Assembly (NCBI GenBank): GCA_938045815.1
Contig: CALIBI010000016.1
Location: 1-37,632, forward strand
Direction of reading: 5' to 3'
Length of the DNA stretch: 37,632 nt
DNA from: an uncultured Sulfolobales archaeon
GTDB taxonomy: Archaea; Thermoproteota; Thermoprotei_A; Sulfolobales; NBVN01
A model generated the notes under the pieces. The model was not told the origin of the DNA, made no database searches, and was given only the letters and a program-made list of their open reading frames with translations. This document shows positions 6,702 through 33,906 of the stretch, piece by piece. Within the stretch, counting starts at the first letter, position 1. Every line of letters begins with the position of its first letter. The position numbers and the translations under genes were made by a program.

Positions 6702-8472
6702 CTGACCCACCCGCTCGCAACTTCCTGAAATAATCATCTATGTTCTTAACTATGTCTTCGTAAACCTTCCTGAATTCTTCGTTACGTACTTCCTTCATCC
6801 TAGCTATGCGTGAGATCACAGGAGCTTCCCTAATCTTAGCGAGAGGCACGCCCTCACTTAAAGTTCTTGAGGCTTCCTCGTAGAACTTAATTATGATGTC
6901 CAGCATGAGGACTGTCTTCTCTGGAGAGCTGTAAGCATCTATTGGGTGGTAAGCACTTTGTTGCAGGAAGTCCTCCCTAATCATCTTGGCTACGTCTAGG
7001 AGTAGCTTATCAGGGTCTGGAAGAGCTTCAGGACCTACCAACCTAACTAATTCCATCAACTCAGACTCTCTCTGAAGGATTCTCAGAGCTTCGTAACGTA
7101 GTTTCAGCCAGTTCTTGAAGTCACGCTCCCACCATCTAGCTACGGTCTCCACGTATCGAGAATAGCTAAGTAACCAGTTAATCGCGGGAAAGTGCCTCCT
7201 GTTAGCTAGCGACACGTCAAGAGCTAGTAGGGCTCCGATGTATCTGAGCGTGTTGGTGGTGACCGGCTCGCTGAAGTCTGCTCCTGGAGGGGATACAGCT
7301 CCTAGGATAGTTAGTGATCCCACCCTCTCTGGATTACCTAAAGTAACTACCCTACCAGACCTCTCATAGAATTCCGCAAGTCTTGAACCTAGGTAAGCAG
7401 GGAAGCCCTCATCACCGGGCATCTCCTCAAGCCTAGCACTTATCTCCCTCATTGCTTCAGCCCACCTAGAGGTTGAGTCAGCAACCATGAGAACGTCATA
7501 CCCCATATCCCTGAAATACTCACCTATGGTTACCCCCAGAAAGACGCTAGTCTCCCTAGCGGCCACAGGCATGTTAGACGTGTTAGCTATGAATATAGCT
7601 TTTTCTGAGAGAGGCCTGCCTGAAGCAGGATCAGTGAGTTTTCTGAAACTATGTAGTGCGTCAGCCATCTCATTACCTCTCTCACCACACCCAACGAATA
7701 TGTTGACTTGAGTTCTGCTCCACTTAGTTAAGGTATGCATAAGTACTGTCTTACCGCTCCCGAAACCTCCCGGTACTGCAGCCTTACCACCCCTCGCTAT
7801 CGGGAACATCATATCCAGCACCCTAGTTCCGGTTATGAGTGGCTCAACAGGTTCTAGTCTAGTCTTGTAAGGTCTTGGCTTACGTATAGGCCACTTACTC
7901 GCTAGCCTTACTTCCTCCCTCCTCCCCCCACCAACATCAATCACAGCTATAGTTTCCTCGATAGTATAGTCGCCGTCGGGAGCTAACTCCTTCAACACGC
8001 CTGAGATTCCCGGAGGCACCATGATTTTGTGTAGTAGTATGGGGGTTTCTTGCACGTATCCTAAGATACTGCCGCCCTCTATCTTATCACCCGCCTTAAC
8101 ACCCGATCTAACGAAGAACCACTTAGCGTCTCTCGATAAAGCAGGTAATTTAACTCCCCTACCCACGAAAGCTCCGTAAAGCTCACCAATAACTGACAGA
8201 GGTCTCTGGAGCCCGTCATACACTCTCCCCACAAGACCTGGACCTAATTCTGCCGAGAGCAAGCCTCCAGTACCTTCAACAGGCTCCCCAACACGCAGTC
8301 CTGAAGTATCCTCATACACCTGTATGAACGCTCTATCACCTTGCAGCCCGATAACCTCACCTATGAGTCTCTCCTCACCCACCAAGACTACCTCGTAAAC
8401 CATCGAACCCTCCATACCCTCAGCTACTATTAAGGGGCCTGAGATCCTCAATATCTTGCCTCTAACCAACAC
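6691..8472 (-). CDS. atpA: A-type ATP synthase subunit A (catalytic)
   Basis: Catalytic subunit that makes or hydrolyses ATP. The Walker A motif [14 protein letters not shown] is near residue 237, followed by GCGERGNEM, the Walker B-like [44 protein letters not shown] and [15 protein letters not shown]. The extra non-homologous region of A/V-type catalytic subunits is present around residues 110-200. Its 593 residues are normal for the family, and no intein is seen at the P-loop. The start is GTG 8472 (TTG 8469 possible). The gene directly abuts atpF. Confidence 0.97.
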
Positions 8473-8826
8473 TCACACCTCAATGCTAATACCTAAATAA
8501 GACTTAATCATACGTAAGTAATAATCCCTCACATCTATTCCAGAAACTTCCTTAGAGCTAGGAACGAACACTACTAGGGGTTCCCTCCCAACCTTCTGCA
8601 CCTTATCAGCTACCAAATCTCTAAACCTGTACTGTATTATTACGAGACCGACGGAAGGATCTTCATAAAGTTTCGCTAGAGACTCACCCAACCTCTTCTT
8701 AAGCTCAGCAATGTCTTCAGTCTCAGAAACCTCGATGAACCTCTTAACACCGACTAGCTTGAAGCCATTAATGAATCCTAAATCACCAATCACTACTATG
8801 TCTTTCTTACTTGGTAATCGACTCAT
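8473..8826 (-). CDS. atpF: A-type ATP synthase subunit F
   Basis: Small central-stalk subunit attached to the rotor shaft. The protein has 117 residues with the Rossmann-like pattern of the family: DIVVIGDLGFINGFKLVGV at the N-terminus, a helix EDIAELKKRLGESLAKL, the strand VGLVIIQYR, and EPLVVFVPSSKE near the end. ATG 8826 overlaps atpC by 20 bp and its stop is immediately followed by the atpA start. Confidence 0.93.
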   Translation of the reverse strand: MSRLPSKKDIVVIGDLGFINGFKLVGVKRFIEVSETEDIAELKKRLGESLAKLYEDPSVGLVIIQYRFRDLVADKVQKVGREPLVVFVPSSKEVSGIDVRDYYLRMIKSYLGISIEV

Positions 8827-9805
8827 AAAGTCCTAACCACCTCCCCACTTCCTCCCTAATTAGGTCTGGTGAGTACCCAGAATTAATTAAGTGTACTACG
8901 TAAGAAAGAAGAGAAAACTCAAAATCCTTAAGGAGTAGGTAATCAAGTAACGTGTCAGCAGAGACCGGGAGTGACTTAAGTATGTTGTGGCAAAAATGTG
9001 TTGGCAAGACAGACAACACGTACTCGAAGTCATGCGTGCTCCTAGAAGTCCTAAGTATGACTTCTCTTTGTTTCTGCGTTAGCGTAGTGACAACAGCTCT
9101 TAAGTCTCCTCCCTCCAGCAAAGTCTTCCTTAGAGATGGCTTAGCCTCCTCGAACTCTTTAAGAAACTCCACACATCTAAGTCCGTAAGAAGAAACGTTC
9201 AGTTTCCTTAAAGTATTCTCAAGGCTCCTGAAGTAAAAAGCACTTAATTTTCTAGAGAACACACCAACATCTAACTCACTAATCTTCATCCTCCTATATT
9301 CCCCGAGAATCGCGGATATTACCTCACTCATAAATCCTTTCTTACTCATTATCGAAATAACCTCACTCACTTCCTTAGCTGTCTTAAGAGATTCCGCTAT
9401 GGGTGTGTCTAAATACGTGGTTTCTCTCAGTCCAGCACTCATGATGCCTGTTAAGTCACTAATTACGTACTTACTTATGTAGAGATCTATTAAGTTCACC
9501 ACATCCTCAGAAGGCTTAATTAAGCGTATCACGTTCCTCAAATCACTTTCCCAGCACTTCAGCAGCTTAGAGTATATTAGTGTGCGAGATAGTGGTAAAT
9601 CACTCCTCAGTTCCCTACCAACACATGAGCTAATCTCAAAACCCTGCAAAGCAGATAGTAGGCCAGTGAATGTGTAGGTCACTAACTCATTAATTCTCCT
9701 CATGTTTTCCGGGTGTAAGGTTCTGTGGGTGCGTATCTTGATGTAATTAAAGAATATCTCGTCATTCACTGAAACAACCACCAAGCTAACCTCCAAAAAC
9801 TTCAT
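8807..9805 (-). CDS. atpC: A-type ATP synthase subunit C (V-type d homologue)
   Basis: Funnel-shaped subunit that seats the central stalk on the membrane c-ring. The protein is 332 residues, almost entirely helical, and repetitive in the way of this family (three related three-helix units). Motifs are less conserved than in A or B, so the call rests on size, all-helical content and the invariant position between E and F. ATG 9805 overlaps atpE by 20 bp, and the stop overlaps atpF. Confidence 0.85.
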   Translation of the reverse strand: MKFLEVSLVVVSVNDEIFFNYIKIRTHRTLHPENMRRINELVTYTFTGLLSALQGFEISSCVGRELRSDLPLSRTLIYSKLLKCWESDLRNVIRLIKPSEDVVNLIDLYISKYVISDLTGIMSAGLRETTYLDTPIAESLKTAKEVSEVISIMSKKGFMSEVISAILGEYRRMKISELDVGVFSRKLSAFYFRSLENTLRKLNVSSYGLRCVEFLKEFEEAKPSLRKTLLEGGDLRAVVTTLTQKQREVILRTSRSTHDFEYVLSVLPTHFCHNILKSLPVSADTLLDYLLLKDFEFSLLSYVVHLINSGYSPDLIREEVGRWLGLYESITK

Positions 9806-10966: not shown

Positions 10967-12997
10967 CTATACCGACTTACCCAAGGTAACGTGTTTCTCT
11001 ATCTTTAAAGCAAACGGCGTGAATTCTCTGCCGTTCCCATCATACCACTTAGGAAGGAACTCAACAAAACATAACCTCATAGAGTGAACAAACCCTCCTA
11101 TAGCTCCGAAAACCAGGTTGAACATATTCATAAATACAGCGATAACGATCATTATTACTAACCCCAAGACAGCGCCCGCAAGAGGTGCTAAACCTGAGAA
11201 ATACTCGTAAACACTGAAAGACAATTTATTGAAGTTGACAGCCATCACGTAAGTAGCTATGCCTAACCCAGCTATCCTGGAGTACGAGAGAACATCGCCT
11301 AGCAAGCCAGTAATGTTGAATATCCACATAAAGAGACCGATACCACCTAAAGACTTAACAGTACCTATAATCATTACTAGTACTCCAATAAGTGACGCGT
11401 ATAACATGTAGGTGTATGCTTCATTACTTAGAGGTAGTAAGTCGTAGCGAAGGAATTCGTGCAACACGTACGGTATGCCGAAAATCTCAGAGATTATTAA
11501 GCCGGCACCACTCAAGACCCTGCCTAAATCCCTAGCCTTGACACCTATAATCACTGAGAGAACGTACCCTAAGTTTATGTGTACGAGACCGATAACTAGT
11601 GCTAGAACCAGGAAGAACATAGGGTCTGATAAGTTGATTAGGGATGGTATGTTGATTAAGCCGCTACTTACCTCACTAGCAATGACCAGCATCACGCGCC
11701 CACCCTCAAAACATACTGAGTATCCCGCGAAGGTATTCGATAAAACACCGAAAATAGTGGAGGAAAGACCCAGCATCAGCAACATCTTCTTTAGTGAGAT
11801 ATAGTTGGGTGAGTAAGGATTATCTATAAACCCACTCCTATCCAAGACATACTTAACTATCAGGAGGAGTATTAGGCCGTAGACAGCGTCAGCCATTATA
11901 AAACCGAAAAACGCTAGGAAGGAGTAGGTGAGGATTGGGGTAGGGTCCCACTCGCCGGGTGAGGGCAAACCGTAAAACCTTGTTAGGAGTTCAAATGGTT
12001 TGAGCGGTCTCGGGTTCTTTAGTTTTGAGGGTGGTTTCTTGTCTGTTGAGACCTTAACTATTAAGTAGGTACTTATCTCGCTACTTAATCTATTCTCTAG
12101 AGTTTTGAGGGATTCTTCAGGAATCCATCCCTCCACAGCTAGTAAGTACTCTCCGCTAGCAGCACTGAGGAGGAAATCAAGTCTAGACTTGATTAAGTCG
12201 CTGATCACCTTAGCTAGAGCAAGCAACTCTAAGTTATCTCTCAAGATTTTTTCTAGTTCATTATCTGTTTTCTCTAGAGCGGCTCTAAGCTCCTCAATAT
12301 GCTTACTCAAGTAATTCAAGTACTCAGATATTGGGGAGTCCTGCTTAGGGAACTCAATAATTTCTGCTCTAGCCTTACTAAGTAGTTCCTGAACCTCTTT
12401 CCAGGCACTCGAAACACCAACCATAAAAACTATCGTTTCGTCCCCTACAAAACCCCACTTAACTACCACGTCTCTAGGTATTGACGTAATGAGTGGTTCA
12501 ATATCTTGCGACTTACCTAAAGCCACCACAGAGAAGAGAGCCTCACCAGCAAATGAGAGCTCAAAAACCCTCAGATTTTCACTGACTTCACGCTTAATTA
12601 CCTCAAGCGCTTTAACTTGCTTTAAACACTTACTAATTTCGTCTGACAGTTTTTTCTTGTTACTAACTAGATTCTCGATTTCTTGACGCACCTTACTTAG
12701 CTTGAGGTGGAGTTCATTCACGACTCTATCTAGGTCCTCAAGACTTACTTCTCTCTTAAGATCTACTACGGTGAACTTATAGTAACTCTCAATAATGTCT
12801 ACCAGGTTTGAGAAAGCTCGCACTTTTTCTGCGTAGTTCTTAAGCTTCTCCTTATCTTCCTCACTCAGCTCTCCTGAAGTTTCTACGTGCATGACGCCCA
12901 GGCTTTGAAGCGTGTTAGTAGTCTTACTACTTAAGTCTTTAGGAACCAGCAACCTAACGTAGTAGAGTCTTTCAGGAACCGATACTATGAGCTTCAT
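10967..12997 (-). CDS. atpI: A-type ATP synthase subunit I (V-type a homologue)
   Basis: Membrane stator subunit forming the ion half-channels against the K ring. The N-terminal half (about 1-350) is soluble with coiled-coil segments that hold the peripheral stalks. The C-terminal half has seven to eight hydrophobic helices, including FLAFFGFIMADAVYGLILLL, NITGLLGDVLSYSRIAGLGIAT (with the conserved arginine) and GAIGGFVHSMRLCFVEFLPKWY. Its 676 residues are normal. The start is ATG 12997 in a TGATG overlap with atpH, or GTG 13000. Confidence 0.96.
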   Translation of the reverse strand: MKLIVSVPERLYYVRLLVPKDLSSKTTNTLQSLGVMHVETSGELSEEDKEKLKNYAEKVRAFSNLVDIIESYYKFTVVDLKREVSLEDLDRVVNELHLKLSKVRQEIENLVSNKKKLSDEISKCLKQVKALEVIKREVSENLRVFELSFAGEALFSVVALGKSQDIEPLITSIPRDVVVKWGFVGDETIVFMVGVSSAWKEVQELLSKARAEIIEFPKQDSPISEYLNYLSKHIEELRAALEKTDNELEKILRDNLELLALAKVISDLIKSRLDFLLSAASGEYLLAVEGWIPEESLKTLENRLSSEISTYLIVKVSTDKKPPSKLKNPRPLKPFELLTRFYGLPSPGEWDPTPILTYSFLAFFGFIMADAVYGLILLLIVKYVLDRSGFIDNPYSPNYISLKKMLLMLGLSSTIFGVLSNTFAGYSVCFEGGRVMLVIASEVSSGLINIPSLINLSDPMFFLVLALVIGLVHINLGYVLSVIIGVKARDLGRVLSGAGLIISEIFGIPYVLHEFLRYDLLPLSNEAYTYMLYASLIGVLVMIIGTVKSLGGIGLFMWIFNITGLLGDVLSYSRIAGLGIATYVMAVNFNKLSFSVYEYFSGLAPLAGAVLGLVIMIVIAVFMNMFNLVFGAIGGFVHSMRLCFVEFLPKWYDGNGREFTPFALKIEKHVTLGKSV

Positions 12998-19848: not shown

Positions 19849-19988
19849 TCATCATCACGCAGTTCATGATAATATTGGTGAGAGGTTTTATAGTATTTCC
19901 GGTGAAGCAGTCTCGCGTAACCCCACCGTTTCCTTTCCATCCCACTTTTTCCCACTCTAAAACAACCAAACATCAAACCAGTAATCTC

Positions 19989-20165
19989 TTAAGGAACCAG
20001 GATTGGCGCTAAGTAACCAAGCACTAGAACAGCTACAGCAAAAAATATAGCAATAAAGATTAACTGATAAGGAGAAATATTCACTTTAGCCTCAACCTCC
20101 TCAAAAAACCTAACTAACCCAGCACCAGACATCATCGAAGTCCTCTTCTTTTTCTTGCTCGACAC
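19989..20165 (-). CDS. Protein translocase subunit Sec61 beta (SecG-like)
   Basis: Small tail-anchored subunit of the SecYE-beta channel. A basic serine/lysine N-terminus (SSKKKKRTS) is followed by the family core SGAGLVRFFEEVEAKVNISP and one C-terminal transmembrane helix (IFIAIFFAVAVLVLGYLAP). GTG 20165 gives the usual length of 58 residues. ATG 20180 would add MLVLE and could be the start of a leaderless message. The gene faces away from the MazG gene across a 58-73 bp AT-rich promoter region. Confidence 0.92.
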   Translation of the reverse strand: MSSKKKKRTSMMSGAGLVRFFEEVEAKVNISPYQLIFIAIFFAVAVLVLGYLAPILVP

Positions 20166-20238
20166 CTCCAACACCAACATAAGTAATACTAAACTAAATA
20201 ATAAACCTTAAACAAAAAACACATGAAGATGAACGAAA

Positions 20239-20508
20239 ATGCACCAAGAAATAACCCTAAGAAAAGTACAGGAAATAATGAGTAAATACTACCTACAAAG
20301 AGATCTTGAAAGAGGACTATACGCAACATTCACGTGGCTCATAGAAGAAATAGGCGAACTAGCAGAATCAATACTAAACCAAAACAAAAAAGCACAAGAA
20401 GAAGAAATAGCAGACGTCCTAGCATGGCTAGCATCACTAGCCAACCTACTCTCAATAGACCTCGAAAAAGCTTTCAAACAAAAATACCTAAACCCACAAC
20501 CACCATAA
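20239..20508 (+). CDS. MazG-like nucleotide pyrophosphohydrolase
   Basis: An 89-residue single-domain all-alpha NTP pyrophosphatase. The metal-binding pattern of the family is present: EEIGELAE at about residues 36-43 and EEEIADVLAW at about 54-62, the latter giving the ExxD motif. It likely hydrolyses (d)NTPs or modified nucleotides. Its + strand is remarkably rich in A and C, unlike the + strand gene 380 bp to the right, because the replication origin lies between them. The start is ATG 20239; earlier ATGs at 20223 and 20229 are out of frame. Confidence 0.85.
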   Translation: MHQEITLRKVQEIMSKYYLQRDLERGLYATFTWLIEEIGELAESILNQNKKAQEEEIADVLAWLASLANLLSIDLEKAFKQKYLNPQPP

Positions 20509-20530: not shown

Positions 20531-20560
20531 CCCCCCCACCCCTCTGTTTCCACTGGAAAC
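20531..20560 (-). promoter_or_regulatory. Origin recognition box, left copy
   Basis: Read on the minus strand it is GTTTCCAGTGGAAAC then AGAGGGGTGGGGGGG. The first part is itself a palindrome-like element and the second is the G-rich tail, pointing away from the AT-rich core. It matches the right copy at 29 of 30 positions. Confidence 0.85.
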
Positions 20561-20752
20561 GAAATATATAGAAATAAACTTAATTTCTAATTAAATTCTA
20601 TATAAATAGAAAATAATACAAAATTAGTATCAAATATGATATAAATCATAAGCTTAAGCTCTCATTTATTGCATATCTATAGAAAATTTTGTATAATGAT
20701 CTATATATAGAGATTATGATTTTAATGAATTTTCTTTCTTATTATTAATTTG
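20561..20752. other. AT-rich duplex unwinding element
   Basis: 192 bp between the two origin boxes, with 31 G or C bases by hand count (about 16%). It contains several small inverted repeats: TTCTAT-ATAA-ATAGAA (20596-20611), ATGAT-ATAA-ATCAT (20636-20649), AGCTTAAGCT (20651-20660) and CTATATATAG (20701-20710). No ORF or tRNA is present. Confidence 0.8.
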
Positions 20753-20782
20753 TTTTCCAGTGGAAACAGAGGGGTGGGGGGG
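20753..20782 (+). promoter_or_regulatory. Origin recognition box, right copy
   Basis: TTTTCCAGTGGAAAC then AGAGGGGTGGGGGGG on the + strand, with the G-rich tail again pointing away from the AT-rich core. It is inverted relative to the left copy. Confidence 0.85.
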
Positions 20783-20889
20783 TAGTTGTGGTGTGTTGTT
20801 AGATGTTGTGTTAGAGTAGATGTTTGGTTGTTGGTTGTTTCTTTATTAACCTTGGATTTAATTTAGTGAGTGGTTGATAGGTAGTGAGG

Positions 20890-21156
20890 ATGTCGGTGAA
20901 GATTTTTAGGGATAAGGGGGAGATAGTGATTGCTGGGATCCCTACTCAGTGGGTTGCTGAGAGGATAATTAAGGATGTTAATGACTTGGTTCATATGAAG
21001 GGTAGTGATTTAGTGTATTTCTTTGAGGGTAGTCCGGGGATTTATGGTGATGGTTTAGTGATTAGGGTAATGCTTAGTAGGTTCTTAAATGAAAACGAGG
21101 TTGGTGTTCTGGTAAAGTATTTTGAGTTAAGGAATGCACGTATAGATGTTTACTAG
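20890..21156 (+). CDS. Small protein of unknown function next to the origin
   Basis: An 88-89 residue soluble alpha/beta protein that I do not recognise. It starts MSVKIFRDKGEIVIAGIP from ATG 20890; GTG 20884 would add two residues. There are no cysteines, no transmembrane helix and no obvious catalytic motif. A hydrophobic strand is followed by an amphipathic helix (TQWVAERIIKDVNDLVHM), a loop rich in glycine (EGSPGIYGDG), then VIRVMLSRFLNENEVGVLVKYF. The + strand is strongly rich in G and T. Biased codon use and the absence of stops in a clean frame support it as real. Its position directly beside the origin may or may not be meaningful. Confidence 0.65.
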   Translation: MSVKIFRDKGEIVIAGIPTQWVAERIIKDVNDLVHMKGSDLVYFFEGSPGIYGDGLVIRVMLSRFLNENEVGVLVKYFELRNARIDVY

Positions 21157-33804: not shown

Positions 33805-33906
33805 TGCGGGGGGTGGGATTTGAACCCACGCAGGCCTACGCCATCGGGGCTCCCACCATGTTTGGACCTGAGCCCGACCCCTTTGACCTGGCTCGGGCAC
33901 CCCCGC
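33805..33906 (-). tRNA. tRNA-Leu (CAG) with 17-nt intron
   Basis: The acceptor is GCGGGGG/CCCCCGC, the anticodon stem TCGGG/CCCGA, and the T arm GTGGG-TTCAAAT-CCCAC, with a long leucine-type variable arm. The spliced anticodon loop is CTCAGGC (anticodon CAG). The intron 33850-33866 sits after position 37 in a textbook bulge-helix-bulge: exon CTCA pairs TGGG, the intron stem is CCA-AACA-TGG, and the bulges are three bases. The discriminator is A, and the following bases are CTA, so CCA must be added by the cca product. Confidence 0.95.

Follow-up and report, generated by a model that had tools for sequence, protein, structure and literature searches.

The window, by which we mean the whole stretch of DNA analysed (37,632 nucleotides), carries an intergenic element flanked by a mazG-like pyrophosphohydrolase gene and a gene for a 90-aa protein (Table 1), the MazG gene and the unrecognised gene between which the earlier note had placed it. 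For the 90-aa protein no Pfam match and no solved structural relative were found. Direct reading and reverse complementing bore out that the two 30-bp ends of the element are inverted copies of each other, identical at 29 of 30 positions. Each arm is a canonical Orc1/Cdc6 origin recognition box (ORB), TTTCCAGTGGAAAC followed by AGAGGGGTGGGGGGG, and its G-string does point outwards as had been noticed from the letters; the value of about 16% GC given for the 192 bp between the arms was likewise reproduced. Around the ORBs the inverted repeat reaches 66-nt arms at 80% identity. Our analysis adds to the earlier description two ucm motifs within the AT-rich region, the sec61beta gene that diverges from mazG, and a degenerate ORB-like element beyond sec61beta. 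GC skew in the window mostly tracks gene strand. Elsewhere in the window, Rfam finds a tRNA gene at 33805-33906 (minus strand) that ARAGORN missed, and its length of 102 nt suggests an intron.

Table 1. Features of the ORB-pair element and its neighbours, in window positions
Feature	Position	Strand	Remarks
Degenerate third ORB-like element	19919..19945	-	GTGGGATGGAAAGGAAACGGTGGGGTT; between the DUF432 and sec61beta genes
sec61beta (Sec61_beta, PF03911)	19998..20180	-	Divergent partner of mazG; conserved neighbour of the putative origin
mazG-like pyrophosphohydrolase gene (PF03819)	20239..20508	+	Conserved neighbour of the putative origin
ORB, mazG-proximal arm	20531..20560	-	G-string outward, towards mazG; CCCCCCCACCCCTCTGTTTCCACTGGAAAC
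Probable duplex unwinding element, AT-rich	20561..20752	.	Between the ORBs
ucm, proximal inverted copy	20612..20622	+	One mismatch (AATAATACAAA)
ucm, distal copy	20688..20698	-	Exact ATTATACAAA; extended element TTTTGTATAATGATCTATATATAGAGAT
ORB, distal arm	20753..20782	+	G-string outward; TTTTCCAGTGGAAACAGAGGGGTGGGGGGG
Gene for 90-aa protein	20884..21156	+	Distal neighbour in G000 (this genome), G002 and G004; replaced in G001 and G003

The 21-base ORB sequence TTTCCAGTGGAAACAGAGGGG occurs exactly twice in the window when up to three mismatches are allowed, against an expectation of zero from 100 shuffles, and inverted 30-mer pairs matching at 29 of 30 positions within 300 bp are expected about 1e-9 times in 37.6 kb of uniform random sequence. 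Across the 1.52-Mb genome, searches for the ORB core with at most two mismatches returned only the two arms, each read on the reverse strand as well, and a single further site with two mismatches. When the G-string was added to the core, the only perfect matches were again the two arms, and matches with two or three mismatches occurred at the same frequency as for the reversed control. The arms are thus the only clear ORBs in the genome, and no second ORB pair was found elsewhere in it by either search. The earlier note had predicted few other paired sites and had named scattering of the 30-bp sequence as an ordinary repeat as the finding that would count against an origin; the genome search agrees with the prediction and revealed no such scattering. 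Given the chance expectation and this uniqueness, the pair is neither a coincidence nor a dispersed repeat.

The AT-rich region also holds two copies of ucm, a motif to which the ucm-binding protein (UBP) binds; when the ucm is mutated, replication from oriC1 of S. islandicus is no longer detectable (PMC12141716). Searching for the ucm core ATTATACAAA (the ucm probe sequence is given in PMC12141716), we found only two matches with at most one mismatch in the window, at 20613 and 20688, and they are inverted relative to one another. An AT-rich motif of 10 bases is no rarity, about three such matches being expected per shuffled window, so the weight of the ucm lies in its position and its conservation. 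Among 35 loci with a divergent ORB pair near mazG, which are not independent (Zestosphaera is counted twice, as L071 and L150, and many are relatives), 15 enclose an exact ucm where shuffles give an expectation of 0.19, and 31 enclose one with at most one mismatch. As a separate observation, two genomes of another genus have two exact inverted ucm between their ORBs (L098, at 5731 and 5879; L079, at 10406 and 10433), with spacing different from that seen here. Paired ucm may thus have evolved on more than one occasion. In the whole of G000 the sequence AATTATACAAA has no exact copy, and its 1-mismatch copies number 19 as against 74 for the reversed control, unlike the situation in Sulfolobus, where 300-plus UBP sites have been reported (PMC12141716).

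The element adjoins mazG in four congeners (G001, G002, G003 and G004, the last being Desulfurococcaceae archaeon Bin S26). In the congener alignment the ORBs (CCCCCACCCCTCTGTTTCCACTGGA) and the distal ucm are near-invariant; the proximal ucm is exact in G001 and G004, and G003 has no clear proximal copy. The distances from ucm to ORB on the two sides are matched, at 69/66 bp in G000, 60/61 in G001, 70/67 in G002 and 69/68 in G004. Across species the ORBs, the ucm and their spacing persist, whereas the adjoining intergenic DNA and the distal genes vary: beyond the distal ORB, G000 and G004 have the 90-aa gene and then TPI, whereas G001 and G003 have an oxidoreductase cluster. The ORB-pair element has stayed put while its far-flank genes were exchanged. 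The degenerate ORB-like element beyond sec61beta is also conserved in all five of these genomes. The G003 assembly breaks inside the element, between the ucm and the distal ORB (end of C25, L030/L068; start of C22, L031). Concerted evolution of the two arms was considered and not supported, either for the ORBs (likeness 0.87 within an origin and 0.86 between species) or for the ucm (0.82 and 0.86).

Two Orc1/Cdc6 proteins score above the curated cut-off in this genome, one encoded on contig C55 (447 bits, TIGR02928) and one on C45 (236 bits). The window itself contains no orc1/cdc6 gene, so the earlier note was right that no initiator gene is nearby. The C55 protein is an Orc1-1 that aligns almost from end to end, through the winged helix, with S. 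solfataricus Cdc6-1 (2qby_A, 464 bits) and A. pernix Cdc6 (2v1u, 422 bits). Its gene lies about 4.9 kb from the end of C55 and the ORB pair at 20.6 kb of a 37.6-kb contig, which puts them at least about 22 kb apart. The minimum separation is larger in the best-assembled congener, G001: there the element sits close to one end of a 560-kb contig, and orc1-1 is on a 757-kb contig with 250 kb or more on each side of it, which puts at least 250 kb between gene and element. ORBs with at most two mismatches were found neither near the two orc1 genes of this genome nor near those orc1-1 genes of family members that were examined. A member of the same family, G010, has orc1-1 about 3-4 kb from mazG (L144, G010:C1:118001-138000, at 8150-9367 and 12478-12819), and no ORBs were found around either gene; the linkage there could be an ancestral state or a later reacquisition, or else this origin may be a diverged one.

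Outside the genus, many Desulfurococcales records, some of them labelled Pyrodictiaceae or Acidilobaceae, have an ORB cluster close to sec61beta-mazG, the distance ranging from a few tens of bases up to about 10 kb. In G025, G029, G039, G048, G050, G057 and G059 no ORB cluster turned up at distances of up to about 10 kb from mazG, and the linkage is therefore widespread in the order but not universal. In G054, which we take to be A. pernix K1 (1,669,696 bp), a single ORB cluster exists, at 444.9-445.2 kb; its distance is about 6 kb to sec61beta, about 19 kb to mazG and 112 kb to orc1-1, which lies at 331.5 kb. Both origins of A. pernix are active by marker frequency (PMC10769869). The same search pattern places ORBs beside orc1-1 in G050 and G059 (both taken as Sulfolobaceae), as is known for Sulfolobus oriC1, and this serves as a positive control for the pattern. 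We found no published description of a sec61beta-mazG linkage of the origin in the part of the literature covered.

Judged by what characterizes an oriC1, the element has two inverted ORBs at 20531-20782 (TTCCANNGGAAAC with a G-string; at least two are looked for), an AT-rich unwinding region between them and, as in Sulfolobales and Aeropyrum, an internal ucm, here one exact and one 1-mismatch copy, and the genome encodes an Orc1-1 initiator on C55. An initiator gene adjoining the origin is absent here, the orc1 genes being on C55 and C45. Such adjacency is common but not defining, as it is seen in Sulfolobus and is lacking in A. pernix, where neither cdc6 gene adjoins the origins (PMC5333045). 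An origin without a linked initiator gene was thus already known, and the present putative origin, which shares this trait with A. pernix, is of a known kind and its isolation is not exceptional. Because the ORBs are unique in the genome and kept in congeners, enclose ucm, and share their sec61beta-mazG placement with the G054 cluster, we consider the element very probably to be the Orc1-1-dependent oriC1 of this archaeon's chromosome. The same four lines of sequence evidence favor the note's reading of a chromosomal origin defined by paired ORBs.

Comparison with described origins shows both shared and distinct features. The A. pernix oriC1 (taken to be the G054 cluster) resembles the present element in having Orc1-type ORBs that flank an AT-rich core, in its sec61beta-mazG neighborhood and in the absence of an adjoining orc1/cdc6 gene (PMC5333045). 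It differs in having four tightly clustered ORBs rather than two near-perfect and one distant degenerate copy, and in its looser gene neighborhood, sec61beta-mazG being immediately adjacent here. The oriC1 of S. islandicus and Saccharolobus solfataricus (ORB3-DUE-ORB2 with a central ucm) likewise combines inverted ORBs, an AT-rich core and ucm (PMC12141716) with a closely similar Orc1-1 initiator; in contrast to our element, it adjoins orc1-1 and has a single ucm midway instead of two inverted copies. Closer to hand, the mazG-linked cluster of Zestosphaera tikiterensis (G005), of the same family, also has an ORB pair and an exact ucm beside sec61beta-mazG, but with a larger gap (289 bp), one ucm and a third canonical ORB. 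What most sets the element apart is its duplicated, inverted ucm with matched spacing.

Among the alternatives, the one that survives best, though we regard it as improbable, is a dormant or relic origin that is an oriC1 in structure while replication now starts elsewhere, e.g. at a WhiP-type origin. Activity is not readable from sequence, and A. pernix has a second origin that is of the WhiP type (PMC10769869). Against a relic, the ORBs, ucm and spacing are held across species while the DNA around them changes, and the genome has no other ORB pair. A miniature inverted-repeat transposable element, in which 30-bp terminal inverted repeats would enclose an AT-rich interior without coding sequence, would account for the 252-bp length and the near-perfect ends, yet we reject it as scarcely credible on copy number and shared placement: the element is single-copy in the assembled genome rather than dispersed, occupies the same location in five species with similar placement in other genera, and has ORBs for ends and ucm inside. 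An Orc1-family regulatory operator for mazG or the 90-aa gene, equally hard to credit, fits the intergenic position and the role of Orc1-2 as a transcription regulator in Sulfolobus (PMC9738581), but two inverted ORBs around an AT-rich core with ucm form an origin layout and not a promoter layout, mazG is transcribed in the direction of the element, and congeners that share the element differ in their distal gene.

For the oriC1 reading, a possible course of initiation can be outlined, with the MCM and UBP steps borrowed from the Sulfolobus model (PMC12141716). An Orc1-1 monomer, supplied by a gene elsewhere in the genome, would bind each inverted ORB through its winged helix and AAA+ domain, and each bound Orc1-1 would then guide one MCM hexamer to the AT-rich stretch that the boxes enclose, with N-terminal faces inward. 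UBP on the ucm motifs may separate or tether the two hexamers until activation, after which replication would depart in both directions. Protein binding, MCM loading, the involvement of UBP and firing in vivo are all predictions of this scheme. Tentatively, and with somewhat more doubt than trust, we suggest that oriC1 in this genus consists of two half-origins that mirror each other, an ORB and a ucm making up each of them, with spacing matched in four species, and that the MCM hexamers would have two UBP between them instead of one. Such an origin would represent a symmetric version of the Sulfolobus arrangement, in a neighborhood that much of the order has retained regardless of where the initiator gene lies.

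The analysis predicts the precise position of an origin in an uncultured group. It also indicates that many Desulfurococcales retain oriC1 in the sec61beta-mazG neighborhood with the initiator gene at another place, a separation at odds with the common view that the two move as a unit. Finally, the paired inverted ucm bears on the question raised in 2025 of whether a single UBP contacts both MCM hexamers or makes activation asymmetric (PMC12141716), for which naturally symmetric origins would offer a direct comparison.
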